DNA from: an uncultured Butyricicoccus sp.
Lineage (GTDB): Bacteria; Bacillota; Clostridia; Oscillospirales; Butyricicoccaceae
Length of the DNA stretch: 64,000 nucleotides
Direction of reading: 5' to 3'
Assembly (NCBI GenBank): GCA_904420185.1
Contig: CAJFUJ010000061.1
Coordinates: 1 to 64,000, forward strand
Below are positions 24,064 to 36,775 of this stretch, piece by piece. How positions within the stretch are numbered: position 1 is the first letter of the stretch; each line of letters begins with the position of its first letter. Below the pieces are notes generated by a model, which was not told where the DNA came from, made no database searches, and saw only the letters and a list, made by a program, of their open reading frames with translations. Made by a program: the position numbers and the translations under genes.

Positions 24064-24489
24064 CTACGTCTTCTCTTCCGCCTCAGGCGTTATCAACTCC
24101 CATGCTTGCACCTCATACTGACCAGCCTCCAGCAAATGCAGCTGCACCATTAGCGTGCCCGCCTCCCCTGCTGGAATCTCAAAGGAAAGTATTTGCGCGG
24201 CCTGGTCATATCGCGCAGCGATCCCCTCCTCATTGAGCAGTGCTTCCATTTCCAGCCCTGCTACACTGGGCTCCAATGCAGCTGCCTCTTCGATTTCCCC
24301 CAACAGGGTCTGTGCTCTGCTGTCCGCTTCAAAATAGTCCCTTGCGACGTCCCAGCCATGGGAGGACACCATATAATCGGACTGCGCACGGCTCAGCGAA
24401 AGCATGGATACGCAGGCAAATAGCAGCAAAATCAAAACATTTACGATCGTCGGAAAACCGACAGCCAGGCTGCTTTTCCGTTTTCTCAT
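24064..24489 (-). CDS. hypothetical single-TM protein of pseudopilin cluster
   Basis: MRKRKSSLAVGFPTIVNVLILLLFACVSMLSLSRAQS; translationally coupled to next gene upstream. Confidence 0.65.
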   Translation of the reverse strand: MRKRKSSLAVGFPTIVNVLILLLFACVSMLSLSRAQSDYMVSSHGWDVARDYFEADSRAQTLLGEIEEAAALEPSVAGLEMEALLNEEGIAARYDQAAQILSFEIPAGEAGTLMVQLHLLEAGQYEVQAWELITPEAEEKT

Positions 24490-24926
24490 GGCCCCTCCCC
24501 CGCTGCGCTGCCGGTATACTGCCGCACGGATAGTTCGGCGACCGCAGCGCCACCAGATACCGGTGCCACCGTAATCTCAGCCTCCACCACATGGTTTTCC
24601 AGTGGGCTGACCGAAAGGCGCAAGGCATAGATCCCGTCCGCTTGGGCGACCGGCCGCCAATCCTGGTTATACCAGGCGATAAAATCACCATCTTCTATGC
24701 GGCCCGAAAGCATTCCGGGCAAGTCCTGCGGGTCGCCATTTGCCGCGCGAAAGGCCATGGCCACGTTTTGGACGACCTGCTGCGCCTGGGCATTGACCCG
24801 GCTACCTGCGCTGAGTGAATAGGCGCGCGACAGCGTCATCATGCAAATCGCTGCGCCCACACAAAAAACCAACAAGTTGACCAGCATTTCGAGCAAAAAC
24901 AGCCGGGTACGGCTTAGATGTTTCAT
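24486..24926 (-). CDS. pseudopilin-like protein
   Basis: MKHLSRTRLFLLEMLVNLLVF N-terminal prepilin-like helix with Glu; ATGA overlap with upstream gene. Confidence 0.65.
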   Translation of the reverse strand: MKHLSRTRLFLLEMLVNLLVFCVGAAICMMTLSRAYSLSAGSRVNAQAQQVVQNVAMAFRAANGDPQDLPGMLSGRIEDGDFIAWYNQDWRPVAQADGIYALRLSVSPLENHVVEAEITVAPVSGGAAVAELSVRQYTGSAAGEGP

Positions 24927-25399
24927 CCGGCGTTCCCCTCCCCTGCTGCACGCGGTGCGAGCAGCAAAGTCTGTTTGCTGCCATCGGGTGCGGTATAATC
25001 GGCACGGATCAGCCGGTCTAGCTGGCGTATGTGCAGCGAACCGGCTTGGCACAGGCGCTCAGCCGTAGCCACACTTTTGGCGGCATCCTGCTTATAAAGG
25101 TAGCCATCACGGCAAAAATATAGCCAATCGACACCATTTTCCCTGGCTTGCAATGCGGTAGTTCCATCGGTCATCTGCACAACGGACAGCCCCTGGATTT
25201 GATCGGCCCGGCGGGCCACGCCTGCCAGATAATCCAGTGGCACCAGCCGGCTATGTGTGTCGGTCGCGCGCTGGTCGATCCCCTCATAAACCGCAATGGC
25301 CTTCACCGCCAACACGCCACAAAATGCAGCAAAAATCACAAAAAAGATCAAAACAAAGGTGGTTCCTGCTCGGTGACGGGCAAGGGTCGTCCATTTCAT
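24923..25399 (-). CDS. pseudopilin-cluster membrane protein (DUF4860-like)
   Basis: MKWTTLARHRAGTTFVLIFFVIFAAFCGVLAVKAI; coupled start/stop with neighbours. Confidence 0.6.
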   Translation of the reverse strand: MKWTTLARHRAGTTFVLIFFVIFAAFCGVLAVKAIAVYEGIDQRATDTHSRLVPLDYLAGVARRADQIQGLSVVQMTDGTTALQARENGVDWLYFCRDGYLYKQDAAKSVATAERLCQAGSLHIRQLDRLIRADYTAPDGSKQTLLLAPRAAGEGNAG

Positions 25400-25701
25400 G
25401 CCCAGGCCCCTCCTTTCTGGCGTCGAACCGTGATTTCAGGCATACGGTCGGGCGCAACCCGGCGGTATTCCACTGAAAAGCTGCGGTTTTGCAGGCGGAT
25501 GCCATAGTGGTCCTCCAGGTAGTCCAGGTCGGGCGGATACCGTCCCTCGACCGCATAGCAATGCTCGGCTGCTTGCCGCAGTTCATTTTCCAGTGCCTGC
25601 CGGCTTTCCCGCACCATCCAGTCGTCAATCCACTGCACGCCGCAGAAAAAAATAACGGCAATTAGGGTTGCTGTAATCAGGCTTTTCAGGATGCTTTTCA
25701 T
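25396..25701 (-). CDS. small pilin-like protein
   Basis: N-terminal TM then AEHCYAVEGRYPPDLDYLEDHYGI, a pattern typical of (pseudo)pilins. Confidence 0.6.
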   Translation of the reverse strand: MKSILKSLITATLIAVIFFCGVQWIDDWMVRESRQALENELRQAAEHCYAVEGRYPPDLDYLEDHYGIRLQNRSFSVEYRRVAPDRMPEITVRRQKGGAWA

Positions 25702-25710
25702 GTCTTTCCC

Positions 25711-26736
25711 TCACGTCATCGCGGTTAAACCGCCCAGCAGCGGCAGCATGACCGAAAGCAAAATCGCGCCAGCCGATACGCTCAGCATCAGCACAATCAC
25801 CGGTTCAAGCCGGATGAGCAACCGTTCCATCCGCACAGCGGTATCTGTGGCCAGACGGGCGGCAGCTTCGTCCAGTACAAATGCCGGCCGGCCGGCCATG
25901 CGCAAACGGCTGAGCGCCTCACCGCTGACAAGGCCGCTTTGGGCCAGTGCTTGCGGCAGCGCCGCGCCCGTATCCAGTGCGGCCTGCATCTGCACAGCCG
26001 CCTGATCGATTTCGGCGTGCTTGGTCAAAAATGCGGCCAGCCGCACGCAATCCCGGTCTTTTTGTCCACAATAACAAAATAGCGCCAGCGCAGCAGTAAA
26101 TTGGGCGGCAGCTATTTTACGGGTCAGCAGCCTGCCTTTCAAAAATTTTGCGTTGCGGTTTTGCAGCAGCAGCCACAGCCAGACCCCGGCAAAAACCGCT
26201 CCTGTCAGCAGCACGCCAGCGATTCCAGCTAGCCACCGTCCTGCTGTCATCGCCCAGCGGGCGAAAGGGGAAAACGACAGGCCCAGAGCAGAAAACTGGT
26301 CTGCAAACACCGGTAGGACAAAGCCGGCTGTGATGATCAAAATCGCGGCGGACAGGGCAGCCATCACCGCCGGATAGGCGGCCCGGCCGCGCAAACTCTG
26401 ATTGGCCACTTTTTCCCGTTCAAAATAGGTTGACAGCGCACTCAGTGTTTGCTCCAAGCGATCCTGTTGTTCACCATATGCAATCAAATCCACCATATAT
26501 TCTGGGAAGGCGCCGGTTTTGCGCATGGCACCAGCCAGTGTCCCCTCGCGCACACCGGTGCGCAGCGTCAAATAAAGTCTTTCTTCCCCTGCGCTGGTCG
26601 CGCGTGCGGCCAGCGCAGAAAAGCATTCGCTCAGTGTATGACCGCGCCGGAGATAGCTGCCCGTATCGCGGCAAAAATCATCCAATGTATGGTTGGGCAG
26701 CAGACGCTCGGTTTTTTTCTGAAACCGTTTGAACAC
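25711..26736 (-). CDS. type II secretion/type IV pilus inner-membrane protein F (PilC-like)
   Basis: FCRDTGSYLRRGHTLSECFSALA, YPAVMAALSAAILIITAGFVLPVFADQF. Confidence 0.85.
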   Translation of the reverse strand: MFKRFQKKTERLLPNHTLDDFCRDTGSYLRRGHTLSECFSALAARATSAGEERLYLTLRTGVREGTLAGAMRKTGAFPEYMVDLIAYGEQQDRLEQTLSALSTYFEREKVANQSLRGRAAYPAVMAALSAAILIITAGFVLPVFADQFSALGLSFSPFARWAMTAGRWLAGIAGVLLTGAVFAGVWLWLLLQNRNAKFLKGRLLTRKIAAAQFTAALALFCYCGQKDRDCVRLAAFLTKHAEIDQAAVQMQAALDTGAALPQALAQSGLVSGEALSRLRMAGRPAFVLDEAAARLATDTAVRMERLLIRLEPVIVLMLSVSAGAILLSVMLPLLGGLTAMT

Positions 26737-32796: not shown

Positions 32797-32885
32797 GATA
32801 GACTCTCCTCTGTATCAAAACATGTTCCTTTGTGCAAAAACATTTGTTGGGATCGGTATTACAATCCCAAGTATATCGTTACATG

Positions 32886-32903
32886 GATACATCTAAGATA
32901 CAT
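32886..32903 (-). promoter_or_regulatory. SARP-type heptad direct repeat ATGTATC-N4-ATGTATC upstream of the secreted protein gene
   Basis: plus-strand GATACAT-CTAA-GATACAT; 10 bp before TATACT on the minus strand. Confidence 0.6.
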
Positions 32904-32932
32904 TTCGCCGCCGCAAGGGAAATTTTTTATTT

Positions 32933-33370
32933 TTATTGATAGAGCAGCACGTCGTCGATCATACGGAACAACTCCAGGCCGCTGCGGAAAAAGCTTGATT
33001 TTCGATTTTCCACCCAAACGACCTCACCTTGCCAAGTAGCGTTTTGGCGGTAGCTGATGCTCAGCAAAAAGGTCGCCAACTCACCTGGCGGGCACTGGAA
33101 ATTTTTCCACCCTTCCCGTGCATACAGCCGTGTGTGTGCTGCGGTGCAGTGCAAAAGCGTCCGCCGCTCTTCGCACCGCTGGGTCAGCATGGTGCAATCC
33201 AGCAGCTCGTCTACGTGGCGTATCAGCGTCATCAGGGCGCGGAATCTAAATTCCTGTGCTTCGAATGCATTATAGAATCTTCCCTGCATTTCCCCGTCTT
33301 GATAAGCATCTATGCATAGGTACATTCGCCTAGCCTCGTATGGGATATCTCCCATGGCAGGAACCAACAT
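32933..33370 (-). CDS. hypothetical cytosolic protein
   Basis: ORF with GGAGGG RBS before ATG 33370; no recognised family. Confidence 0.65.
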   Translation of the reverse strand: MLVPAMGDIPYEARRMYLCIDAYQDGEMQGRFYNAFEAQEFRFRALMTLIRHVDELLDCTMLTQRCEERRTLLHCTAAHTRLYAREGWKNFQCPPGELATFLLSISYRQNATWQGEVVWVENRKSSFFRSGLELFRMIDDVLLYQ

Positions 33371-33413
33371 CCCGTTCCCTCCTCTCATTTGTGTATTATT
33401 ATCGCACCTAGCG

Positions 33414-33431
33414 GATACATCCGGGGTACAT
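33414..33431 (-). promoter_or_regulatory. SARP-type heptad direct repeat ATGTACC-N4-ATGTATC upstream of the 33370 gene
   Basis: plus-strand GATACAT-CCGG-GGTACAT; 10 bp before GATAAT on the minus strand. Confidence 0.6.
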
Positions 33432-33520
33432 TTCCGCGCTCTTCAGAAATTTCTGATGAACGAATTTTATGTAGAAGAATCAAATGCCAGAAAACGCGCT
33501 TGCTTTCCGGCATTGATTCT

Positions 33521-34756
33521 TCATTTGGCTTGCAGCATGGGTATGACTCCACTCCGCCTTGCCGGTTGTAGCGGCCGCAGTTTGCAAGAGAGCACAACAG
33601 GGGTTTTGGGATATTTTTTTCGATAGGCCCGGTGAATCCGCTCCAAAACCTGTTCGCCCGTTTCATAAGTAACCGTCGGGAGCAGCATGACATATTGTGC
33701 CAAACTGTACCGCGCCACCACATCGCCACGGCGAAGTGAAAACCGAATCTCTTCTAACAGCTGATCCATGACTTGATTGAGCAGCTCGGCTTTTGGCATA
33801 TTCAAATACGCATCTGTGACCGTAATCAGGCCTAAGAACACACTTCCACCATAGCGTTCCAAACAGCGCTCTTCAATGCGGTATAAATCCCGGAAAATGC
33901 TATATTCGCATACAAATGCCCCACGTGCATCATCTGTTTCGGACATATTGGCGCATACTTTTTCAATATCCAGATCGGTTGCTTGCTCTGTGCTTGCAAT
34001 ATTGCGGTATAGCTCACGCAGCGGCTCCGAGACCTGCACACCCAATCGTTTATAAAACATTTCTGTAATATGGTCGTAATGCAGTTTTGCATCGGATAAA
34101 CGGCCACAAGCGATCAAGGCTAAAATCATTTCCTGGTTGAGTGTCTCATCCAGATCGTCGATGCGCAGCGCTTTGGTGCACAGTTCAATAATTTCCTCTG
34201 GCCGTCCTTCTTCCCGCAGCATCTGGCACAATAGATAGGTCATGCGCAGAAAACAGCTGTGATAGTATGTGGAAGACGCAATCATCCACATATTTGTTTC
34301 ATTGAGGAAGCGGCCTTTGTACAAGTCGATTGCGCGGTATAACAAATCAATCTGTGGGCGGCTTTCCTTTTTCCCACAGCACTGTTGGTACAGCGCTTCG
34401 AACTCCTCGGCATCGATTGCATAGGAGATCGATGGAGTCCATTGGCAATTTCCTTGCCGCACGGTTAAAAAATCCATGCCCGCCGGTGCACCGCCCTGTG
34501 TCAACAGGCTGCGGAACCGGTGAATCAAGGTTTTCAACGCATTGCTTGGATTGGAACAGTCCCCATCCGACCAAAGCAACTCATAAATTTCAAGTTTTGG
34601 AACCGCACGCTGATGATGGACGGTTAGATATTCTGCCAGCTCCAGCAGTTTTTTGGCGCGCTCCAGCGGTTCACTGATCCGCTTTCCCCGGTAGTATATT
34701 GCAAATCCCCCAAAGGTCTGAATCCATATCTCTGGTGAATGCTCTTGTTGCCACAT
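33521..34756 (-). CDS. SARP/BTAD-type transcriptional regulator with degenerate GGDEF-like C-terminus
   Basis: wHTH IWIQTFGGFAIYYRGKRISEPLERAKKLLELAEYL..., BTAD helices, C-terminal RRGDVVARYSLAQYVMLLP. Confidence 0.8.
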   Translation of the reverse strand: MWQQEHSPEIWIQTFGGFAIYYRGKRISEPLERAKKLLELAEYLTVHHQRAVPKLEIYELLWSDGDCSNPSNALKTLIHRFRSLLTQGGAPAGMDFLTVRQGNCQWTPSISYAIDAEEFEALYQQCCGKKESRPQIDLLYRAIDLYKGRFLNETNMWMIASSTYYHSCFLRMTYLLCQMLREEGRPEEIIELCTKALRIDDLDETLNQEMILALIACGRLSDAKLHYDHITEMFYKRLGVQVSEPLRELYRNIASTEQATDLDIEKVCANMSETDDARGAFVCEYSIFRDLYRIEERCLERYGGSVFLGLITVTDAYLNMPKAELLNQVMDQLLEEIRFSLRRGDVVARYSLAQYVMLLPTVTYETGEQVLERIHRAYRKKYPKTPVVLSCKLRPLQPARRSGVIPMLQAK

Positions 34757-34948
34757 GCAGCCTATCCCCCTCCTTTACAAAAACCAGCATTTGTACAGTT
34801 TTATTATAACAAATGATTGTTATTCTCGCAAGTATGCCCCTTCGTCTAATTTCTAAGCATAGTGCATTCGCCATCTGCATATAGATAGAGAAGTCACGCG
34901 GCCGCCAGCCCGCGCGGCAGCAACCGAACAAAAGGAGTTGATGCAACC

Positions 34949-36775
34949 ATGTGTGGAATCGGGGGACTGGTCGATTATGAACGGGGCGCACGCGTGTGGA
35001 GCGACGTCGGCCGGCGGATGGATCGCGTGCTGACTCCGCGCGGCCCAGACGGCGGCCAGCAATATATGGATGACACTGCCCTTCTGGTGCACCGGCGGCT
35101 GATTGTCGTTGATCCGGACGGCGGCGGGCAACCCATGGCCTCCCCGGACGGCAAGATCATCTTAATCTATAATGGTGAGTTATATAATACAGAGGATCTG
35201 CGTGTCCTTTTGCTGGCCAAGGGGCATGTCTTTCTCGGACATTCTGATACAGAGGTCCTGCTACACGCTTATTTGGAATGGGGGACCGCTGCCTTTGAAC
35301 GGCTCAATGGGATTTATGCCTTTGCACTTTGGGACAAAGCCCACGCCCAACTCATCCTATGCCGTGACCGGCTGGGCGTCAAACCACTTTTTTATAGCTG
35401 CCGCAAAAACGGATTGGTCTTTGGCTCGGAAATCAAGGCTATTTTGTGCCATCCAGAGATTCAACCTCGCGTGGGGGCCGATGGCTTGCGCTCGGTGTTG
35501 CTGCTTGGCCCCGCCCGCCCACCTGGTTTCGGTGTATTCGAAGGCATCGATGAGCTGTTACCTGGCCATTATGCGGTGCTCACCCCAGAACACTTATCCA
35601 TTCGCCCTTATTGGACCCTCCGTGCAAGTGAACATACCGACTCTCCTGCCCAGACGCTGGCGCGCACGCGGGAGCTGATCGAAGATGCCGCCAACCGCCA
35701 GTTGGTCAGCGATGTGCCACTGTGTACCTTTTTGTCGGGCGGGTTGGATTCATCCATTTTATCCATGCTCGCTGCACGGGCCTACAAACGGCAAAATAAA
35801 CAACTGCACACCTGGTCGGTCGATTATCGTGACAACGACAAGTATTTTACAAAAAGCCTATTTCAACCGAACAGCGATGCCGATTTTATCGGCCAAATGG
35901 TGGAGGCCATCGGCTCGGCCCATCATGCGGTCGTCTTAGAAAATCCGGCGTTATGCGCCGCCCTTTTGCCCAGTGTAGACGCGCGTGACCTGCCCGGCAT
36001 GGCCGATGTGGATTCGTCGCTGTTGCTCTTTTGCGCGGCAGTGAAAAAGGAGTTTACCGTGTGCCAATCGGGCGAGTGCGCCGATGAACTGTTTGGCGGC
36101 TATCCCTGGTATCATCGGGAGGAAATCCTGTTTGAAGACACATTCCCCTGGTCCCGCTCGGTGGATTTCCGGATGCAACTGTTACAGGACGGTGTGGTAC
36201 AAGATGGTCCAGCCTTTGTGCGGCAGCATTACCTGGACACCTGTGCAGCGGCCGACAAACTGCCAGGTGAAAGCAAAAAAGATGCCCGTATGCGCGAAAT
36301 GTTCCTTTTGAACTTGCGCTGGTTCATGGCAACCCTGCTCGACCGCAAGGATCGCATGAGTATGTACTCCGGCCTTGAAGTGCGCGTTCCATTTTGCGAT
36401 CACCGCATCGTGGAATACGCCTACAATATGCCCTGGCACCTCAAAGCCTGGGATGGGCGGGAAAAAGGCATCGTTCGCAAAGCGTTTGAAAACGATTTGC
36501 CCACAGAGATTGTATGGCGCAAAAAATCCCCTTACCCAAAGACGTTCTCCCCTGAATATACCGGGCTGGTCTGCTCCTACGTGCGCCAGATCATGCAGGA
36601 TGAGCACTCTTATATCCCCAAGCTGTTCCGTGCAGACGCCATTGAAGAACTGCTGGCAGCCCCCGACGATATGCCAGAGCCGTGGTATGGCCAGCTCATG
36701 CGTGGACCGCAGGTGTTCGCCTATCTGATTCAACTCGACCGCTGGTTTAAAAAATATCGCATTTCGCTTGTTTAA
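34949..36775 (+). CDS. asnB: asparagine synthase (glutamine-hydrolysing), class B
   Basis: MCGIGGLVDY, SGGLDSS, VRVPFCDHRIVEYA. Confidence 0.95.
   Translation: MCGIGGLVDYERGARVWSDVGRRMDRVLTPRGPDGGQQYMDDTALLVHRRLIVVDPDGGGQPMASPDGKIILIYNGELYNTEDLRVLLLAKGHVFLGHSDTEVLLHAYLEWGTAAFERLNGIYAFALWDKAHAQLILCRDRLGVKPLFYSCRKNGLVFGSEIKAILCHPEIQPRVGADGLRSVLLLGPARPPGFGVFEGIDELLPGHYAVLTPEHLSIRPYWTLRASEHTDSPAQTLARTRELIEDAANRQLVSDVPLCTFLSGGLDSSILSMLAARAYKRQNKQLHTWSVDYRDNDKYFTKSLFQPNSDADFIGQMVEAIGSAHHAVVLENPALCAALLPSVDARDLPGMADVDSSLLLFCAAVKKEFTVCQSGECADELFGGYPWYHREEILFEDTFPWSRSVDFRMQLLQDGVVQDGPAFVRQHYLDTCAAADKLPGESKKDARMREMFLLNLRWFMATLLDRKDRMSMYSGLEVRVPFCDHRIVEYAYNMPWHLKAWDGREKGIVRKAFENDLPTEIVWRKKSPYPKTFSPEYTGLVCSYVRQIMQDEHSYIPKLFRADAIEELLAAPDDMPEPWYGQLMRGPQVFAYLIQLDRWFKKYRISLV

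Follow-up and report, generated by a model that had tools for sequence, protein, structure and literature searches.

EmbR from Mycobacterium tuberculosis, which controls cell-envelope genes, joins a winged helix-turn-helix (wHTH) domain and a BTAD domain to a C-terminal domain for signal input, in this case an FHA domain that binds phosphopeptides. An OmpR-type wHTH followed by BTAD is likewise the hallmark of AfsR and the SARP-type activators, whose promoters carry two direct repeats one turn apart, with the 3' repeat 8 bp from the -10 element and a poor -35 element (PMC10936776, PMC4393881). In the AfsR model the -35 element is replaced and region 4 of the sigma factor docks on the activator, the base-contacting residues of which are R92 and T88 (PMC10936776). 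Degenerate GGDEF domains that act as receptors are represented by PelD from Bacillus cereus, with a non-catalytic GGDEF fold, an intact RxxD motif and a third arginine 29 residues on; its residues R363, D366 and R395 are needed for the binding of c-di-GMP (PMC7112168). In Clostridioides difficile, adhesins and type IV pili are controlled by c-di-GMP riboswitches (PMC9286219). SARP-type activators and degenerate GGDEF receptors are each already known, and the control of pili and adhesins in commensal gut Clostridia (Butyricicoccus, Oscillibacter and relatives among the Lachnospiraceae) is largely unknown. Searches of the open-access literature turned up neither a SARP-GGDEF fusion serving as a conserved clostridial surface activator nor a 12-bp repeat period nor the protein family described below under its core motif RQNASWQG.

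The window, a stretch of 64,000 nucleotides from an uncultured Butyricicoccus sp., encodes such a fusion next to two repeat-bearing promoters (Table 1). With a probability of about 0.8, the protein is read as a SARP-type activator that responds to c-di-GMP and turns on genes of surface adhesion through heptad-repeat promoters, an assignment made from sequence comparison. The fuller version, a widespread clostridial pathway in which an activator with a dead GGDEF domain, bound to c-di-GMP, would turn on sortase pili, SipW fibres and giant adhesins together with an RQNASWQG feedback partner, is put at slightly below even odds. Such a system would supply a regulator whose DNA code is defined and whose targets can be listed from any genome sequence, together with a likely input signal and a linked, uncharacterised protein family; it would carry the SARP mechanism of activation from antibiotic production over to surface structures and offer a protein route of c-di-GMP control alongside the known riboswitches.

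Table 1. Features of the regulator locus (positions in the window; parts of the promoters are listed in the direction of reading).
Feature	Position	Strand	Remarks
Secreted low-complexity protein, 249 aa	32047..32796	minus	signal peptide; conserved C-terminal stretch
Site 1 promoter, ATGTATC-TTAG-ATGTATC-N10-TATACT	32870..32903	minus	read directly; ATGTATC 32903-32897, TTAG, ATGTATC 32892-32886, N10, TATACT 32875-32870; predicted to drive the secreted protein
Small RQNASWQG-family protein, 151 aa (longest frame)	32933..33388	minus	probably 145 aa from ATG 33370
Site 2 promoter, ATGTACC-CCGG-ATGTATC-N10-GATAAT	33398..33431	minus	read directly; ATGTACC 33431-33425, CCGG, ATGTATC 33420-33414, N10, GATAAT 33403-33398; predicted to drive the RQNASWQG-family gene
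Regulator, 411 aa	33521..34756	minus	wHTH about 10-106, BTAD 114-253, degenerate GGDEF about 280-396
Regulator's own promoter, TTGCGA-17-TATAAT	about 34802..34830	minus	repeat absent (read directly)

The preliminary description of this DNA had placed a wHTH+BTAD regulator here, and the assignment is borne out: in Pfam, BTAD is recognized at 9.8e-17 (62 bits, cutoff 22), preceded by an N-terminal wHTH of the OmpR type for which Trans_reg_C scores 24.4 bits, slightly below its cutoff of 26.2. The C-terminal degenerate GGDEF domain (Pfam 0.0013) comes in addition to that claim. A profile of the regulator matches AfsR (8hvr) with E = 6e-22 over both AfsR domains, its best PDB match by sequence; with the AlphaFold model (pLDDT 90), Foldseek returns EmbR as the best match (1e-10) and AfsR among the best (2e-9). 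The contact residues W74, T88, R92 and R94 of AfsR correspond to W62, T76, R80 and R82 of the regulator, where R80 is kept in 83 and R82 in 84 of 98 homologues. Unlike AfsR and EmbR, the regulator carries the degenerate GGDEF domain in the place of NOD/TPR and of FHA, respectively. The host belongs to the Clostridia, many relatives use a repeat period of 12 bp, and the predicted targets are surface proteins and pili instead of antibiotic clusters, which is why the protein is classified as SARP-type by structure and promoter design and not as an antibiotic regulator.

Direct reading finds the two heptad direct-repeat promoters, with 4-bp spacers and N10 before the -10 element, exactly as they had been claimed, and the same holds for the regulator's own promoter, which has no repeat. 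The gene of the secreted protein lies 79 bp from site 1, counted from the -10. If the repeats are taken as 9 bp long, they stand 11 bp apart with N8 after the second, and a -35 element is absent, SARP promoters having a poor one or none. In the organism's own genome (2.10 Mb in 66 contigs, 82.8% complete) the exact sequence ATGTAYC-N4-ATGTAYC matches twice, both times in the window, and its sole copy with one mismatch (contig C66, 50201-50218) is followed by N10 and TATACT; the pattern including the -10 element has three matches, compared to 0 for the reversed pattern. The genome-wide scan for which the preliminary description had called has thus yielded a third site, and it fronts a pilus operon. 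A site with period 12 was looked for in this genome and none was found. Within the window, the two-half-site model introduced below scores at least 8 at sites 1 and 2 only, and matches with 3 mismatches number 14 against 7.6 by chance, i.e. about twofold. The same genome encodes a paralogue of the regulator with 43% identity (G000, C61:106037-107194, plus strand; L028/L029), which is followed by genes for a TolC-like outer-membrane efflux protein, an HlyD-like protein and an AcrB-type RND protein, unusual in Clostridia. Control of this efflux operon by the paralogue through a heptad-type site was considered and dropped, because transcription there starts from a promoter of the ordinary kind, TTGACA/TATAAT, accompanied by a palindrome.

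The gene behind site 2 encodes a small cytoplasmic protein composed of two beta-beta-beta-alpha units, with the family core F-RQN-A/S-T/S-WQG. The longest frame starts at 33388, but the ATG at 33370 is favoured by its ribosome-binding site GGAGGG and by homologues that begin there, so that a length of 145 rather than 151 residues is likely. Pfam holds no family for the protein; a weak match to the PUR-alpha fold (E = 0.27) was set aside, the fold search giving nothing significant. A contig search with the family alignment as query retrieved at least 559 relatives in Clostridia; the contig search with the single regulator sequence as query gave no relatives. In a set of 87 genomes of the same family, which includes Butyricicoccus species and Intestinibacillus, the regulator is present in 28 (E<=1e-30), the RQNASWQG gene in 23 and both in 22, that is, the gene accompanies 22 of the 28 regulator-positive and 1 of the 59 regulator-negative genomes (Fisher 3e-14, shared ancestry ignored). 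A full-length regulator lies within 8 kb, mostly directly upstream, at 43 of the 80 best named RQNASWQG loci, and all 19 searched genomes with such loci possess the regulator, including those where it is non-adjacent. The family is an undescribed one, kept almost only together with the regulator, and its gene is itself a predicted target. That the protein acts as a partner or feedback modulator of the regulator is a tentative suggestion, the simplest at hand.

In relatives the promoter design reads aTGTAACCG-N2/3-aTGTAACCG-N8-TATAmT, with a period of 11 or 12 bp and 17 bp from the start of the second repeat to the -10 element. The shorter form aTGTAAC-N4-aTGTAAC-N10-TATAmT is found upstream of the RQNASWQG gene in relatives, and equivalent sites precede its orthologues in many genera. 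Neither a lack of conservation nor a chance frequency away from promoters, the two outcomes that the preliminary description had named as fatal to its proposal, was encountered on examination. By raw count across the 87 genomes the pattern exceeds its control just weakly (28 versus 15); what makes it informative is the split by regulator presence, with 22 sites in the 28 positive versus 6 in the 59 negative genomes. A two-half-site model (period 11 or 12, start of the second repeat 17 bp from the -10) scores at least 12 in 33 of 80 RQNASWQG promoters versus 0.23 expected from first-order shuffles, with the qualification that these loci were chosen for similarity to the neighbour in the window, that 4 of them (L117, L118, L119 and L169) also belong to the training set, and that sequence relatedness remains in the counts. 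Both periods are needed, as a weight matrix with a fixed period of 11 missed most Oscillospiraceae. Because of the training overlap and the similarity-based choice of loci, a motif-free test was added, in which 8-mers were paired wherever 7 or more of their positions agree, over periods of 8-16 and without restriction on the distance to TAnnnT. The maximum falls at period 12 and distance 17 (20 of the 80 promoters, again with sequence relatedness in the counts); other periods apart from 11 give about 0-1, and 710 upstream regions of other genes at the same loci give 1.3%. About half of the 80 promoters, many from Lachnospiraceae, are devoid of a recognisable TGTAAC site, and 11 of 46 promoters without this motif nevertheless display the motif-free design, with half-sites such as CGTGATAG, CGTGCCAG and TATGATTG. 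Six Lachnospiraceae loci (L149, L163, L184, L133, L175 and L186) have the period-12 design, their half-sites being for example CGTGATAG or CGTGCCAG, and a recognition helix with N-N/S in place of K-T.

Covariation between protein and DNA points to the reader of these sites. Among 35 regulator-site pairs, His or Tyr at residue 79 covaries with A versus G/C at base 5 of the half-site (p=1.6e-6), Asn at residue 75 with a base 7 that is not C (p=1.1e-4), and Asn at residue 80, the counterpart of R92 in AfsR, with T at base 3 (3/3 versus 0/32, p=1.5e-4, possibly one evolutionary event), all Fisher tests and counts ignoring shared ancestry. Along the same lines, the contacts of AfsR fall on the initial 8 bp of its 11-bp repeats, like the conserved block here. 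In a tree of the regulators, those with period-11 and those with period-12 sites group by class (5 changes, where shuffling gives 12.5 on average and none of 500 shuffles is as low); this tree still includes the wrongly extracted frame L237 with a branch length of 10, and later alignments were made without that frame. Since repeats emerge from the motif-free test in spite of diverged half-sites and the recognition helix covaries with them, it is very probably the regulator family itself that reads the sites, and direct binding of the repeats by the regulator is predicted with considerable confidence. The original proposal that this SARP relative activates both neighbours gains support from conservation, genome-wide placement, co-occurrence and covariation.

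The regulon, described earlier as a small one of unknown function comprising the two neighbours, extends beyond these and can be given a probable role: a further site lies at the C66 pilus operon, unlinked sites occur in relatives, and by their placement the predicted targets are surface proteins and sortase pili. The operon behind the third site encodes a coiled-coil protein, signal peptidase I, an LPETG surface protein with a SpaA fold, an LPETG major pilin, a class C sortase, an LPQTG pilin and a second sortase (profiles NF033745 with 284 bits for the class C sortase, TIGR04226, GramPos_pilinBB, SpaA and LPXTG anchor). With a class C sortase and an LPXTG major pilin bearing an isopeptide domain, it is by its predicted proteins a SpaA-type sortase pilus operon. 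The secreted protein encoded in the window ends in a conserved stretch, ..WTD.PG.SL.GDAPEVTV..G.NEY.L.Y.LEDGW.I, and its unlinked homologues in Butyricicoccus relatives (L064, L078, L079) bear the same kind of site and directly precede giant VWA/SLH or other giant secreted proteins. Further unlinked sites in the family precede LPXTG giants (L071, L083), one of them with collagen-binding and SpaA domains, a SipW signal peptidase accompanied by SipW-dependent, VWA and LPXTG proteins (L074), and a VWA protein (L076). Over 21 genomes with named loci, the period-12 pattern matches 30 times versus 0 for the reversed pattern. Twelve matches precede RQNASWQG genes, as expected for a pattern derived from those genes; 16 of the other 18 precede secreted or surface genes (called by signal peptide and content), SipW peptidase genes or pilus-type coiled-coil genes, the latter resembling the first gene of the pilus operon in the window's organism. 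Of the remaining two, one lies at a transposase-like gene (L219), and the other is a good site just beyond the 3' end of a regulator gene, pointing antisense into it (L222, G095:C30:33587-33621, plus strand). In the Lachnospiraceae loci L142 and L176, the regulator and RQNASWQG genes have class C sortases and a pilin at a distance of 4-8 kb. In a Fusicatenibacter MAG (L185) one contiguous cluster comprises the genes for the regulator, the RQNASWQG protein, the pilus coiled-coil protein and signal peptidase, joining the two loci of the window's organism, and a site at L087 (G050:C29:1781), with an N run nearby, stands before a short secreted low-complexity protein like that of 249 residues.

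The C-terminal domain has the GGDEF fold, by its AlphaFold model (pLDDT 90) and by Foldseek matches to diguanylate cyclases. The motif GG[DE]EF occurs in 0 of 98 homologues, its position reading S-x-x-Q-Y/F in the family and SLAQY in this regulator, and the metal and GTP positions (D-FK-ND) are variable, at odds with an active diguanylate cyclase. The triad R342, D345 and R373, on the other hand, is invariant in 96/96 homologues; over 98 regulators, which form 67 clusters at 60% identity, no other column of the domain is fully invariant except L359. Its spacing, R342-xx-D345 plus a distal arginine, is that of the c-di-GMP inhibitory site (I-site), and is shared with PelD; R342 and D345 align with FRKSD of DgcR (6zxm), a protein of known structure in complex with c-di-GMP, in which the arginine of DRVR is the partner of R373. 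As RxxD is also present in 11 of 12 canonical GGDEF cyclases sampled, its occurrence in the regulator is in part inherited, and the case rests on invariance after the loss of catalysis. Canonical GGDEF cyclases are encoded in 27/28 regulator-positive versus 31/59 regulator-negative genomes of the family (p=2e-5, kinship ignored), six of them in the window's genome; in G061, with the regulator, no GGDEF cyclase was detected, and in G050 a canonical cyclase gene lies directly upstream of one regulator copy. Given that the triad was kept and catalysis lost, a switch operated by c-di-GMP is the likeliest reading for the activator, and control by this messenger is considered somewhat more probable than not. 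In contrast to PelD, which acts post-translationally on exopolysaccharide synthesis, the domain is fused to a predicted DNA-binding activator, with c-di-GMP binding a prediction. As in C. difficile, c-di-GMP would be tied to surface and adhesion genes in Clostridia, here through a protein activator rather than RNA switches, and with other gene sets.

It can be envisaged that two protomers sit side by side on two direct 9-bp half-sites (ATGTAYCCG-like here, aTGTAACCG in relatives), 11 bp apart or, in many relatives, 12 bp apart, with the second half-site starting 17 bp before the -10 element. The protomers would take the place of the -35 element and recruit RNA polymerase by sigma adaptation as in AfsR, region 4 of the sigma factor docking on the activator; since lineages differ in using 11 or 12 bp, the protomers would have to be arranged differently to one another in the two cases. 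Binding of c-di-GMP at the retained I-site would switch the activator and so couple the expression of surface structures to the messenger. Targets would comprise the RQNASWQG protein, the secreted low-complexity protein and the SpaA-type pilus operon in this organism, and pili, LPXTG/VWA/SLH adhesins and SipW-dependent fibre proteins in relatives.

The same regulon could also be run by a protein whose C-terminal domain serves merely for dimerisation or as a scaffold, in which case activity would depend on phosphorylation, on the amount of regulator expressed or on the RQNASWQG protein. Many SARPs work without a ligand, retained GGDEF folds can serve as scaffolds, and in G061 the regulator is present although no cyclase was detected; against this stand the three I-site residues among just four invariant columns, while catalytic and GTP positions vary freely, and the cyclases in all but one of the regulator-positive genomes, so that the scaffold reading is possible but rather unlikely. 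It is improbable that another regulator or an alternative sigma factor reads the repeats and that the regulator merely co-occurs with them. The 43% paralogue could share sites, and many loci have a site without an adjacent regulator, but the regulator is present in 19/19 searched genomes with such loci, its recognition-helix residues covary with half-site bases and the period classes cluster on its tree; the promoter next to the paralogue is of the ordinary type. Nor does a -35 element of a sigma factor fit, as the TGTAAC copies lie 10 or 21-22 bp from the -10, neither of which is a -35 distance.

Where the repeats overlap the core promoter they could block polymerase, the sites then being operators and the protein a repressor. 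The geometry is nevertheless that of SARP activators, with the 3' repeat 8 bp from the -10, and in the absence of a -35 element there is no basal promoter to repress; repression is accordingly quite improbable, and activation of the predicted targets is strongly favoured. Short motifs are frequent, and three-mismatch matches in the window reach no more than about double the chance number, yet chance repeats of an AT-rich intergenic region are a practically negligible explanation for exact repeats with a -10 element found three times in the genome against a reversed control of 0, and for a design conserved across families, by which they are already refuted.

The surroundings of the activator locus hold some further genes. 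About 6 kb from the regulator, the stretch 24064-26736 on the minus strand encodes an F-type protein of type II secretion/type IV pilus systems (T2SSF, 1.9e-19), followed by small pseudopilin-like genes. In 13 of the 80 relatives the RQNASWQG gene has a gene for a PilT-like ATPase no more than 8 kb away, in many cases immediately upstream of the regulator. Divergent from the regulator lies asnB (asparagine synthase, 34949-36775, plus strand), and asnB-like fragments flank surface-protein sites in the relatives L198, L200 and L202.
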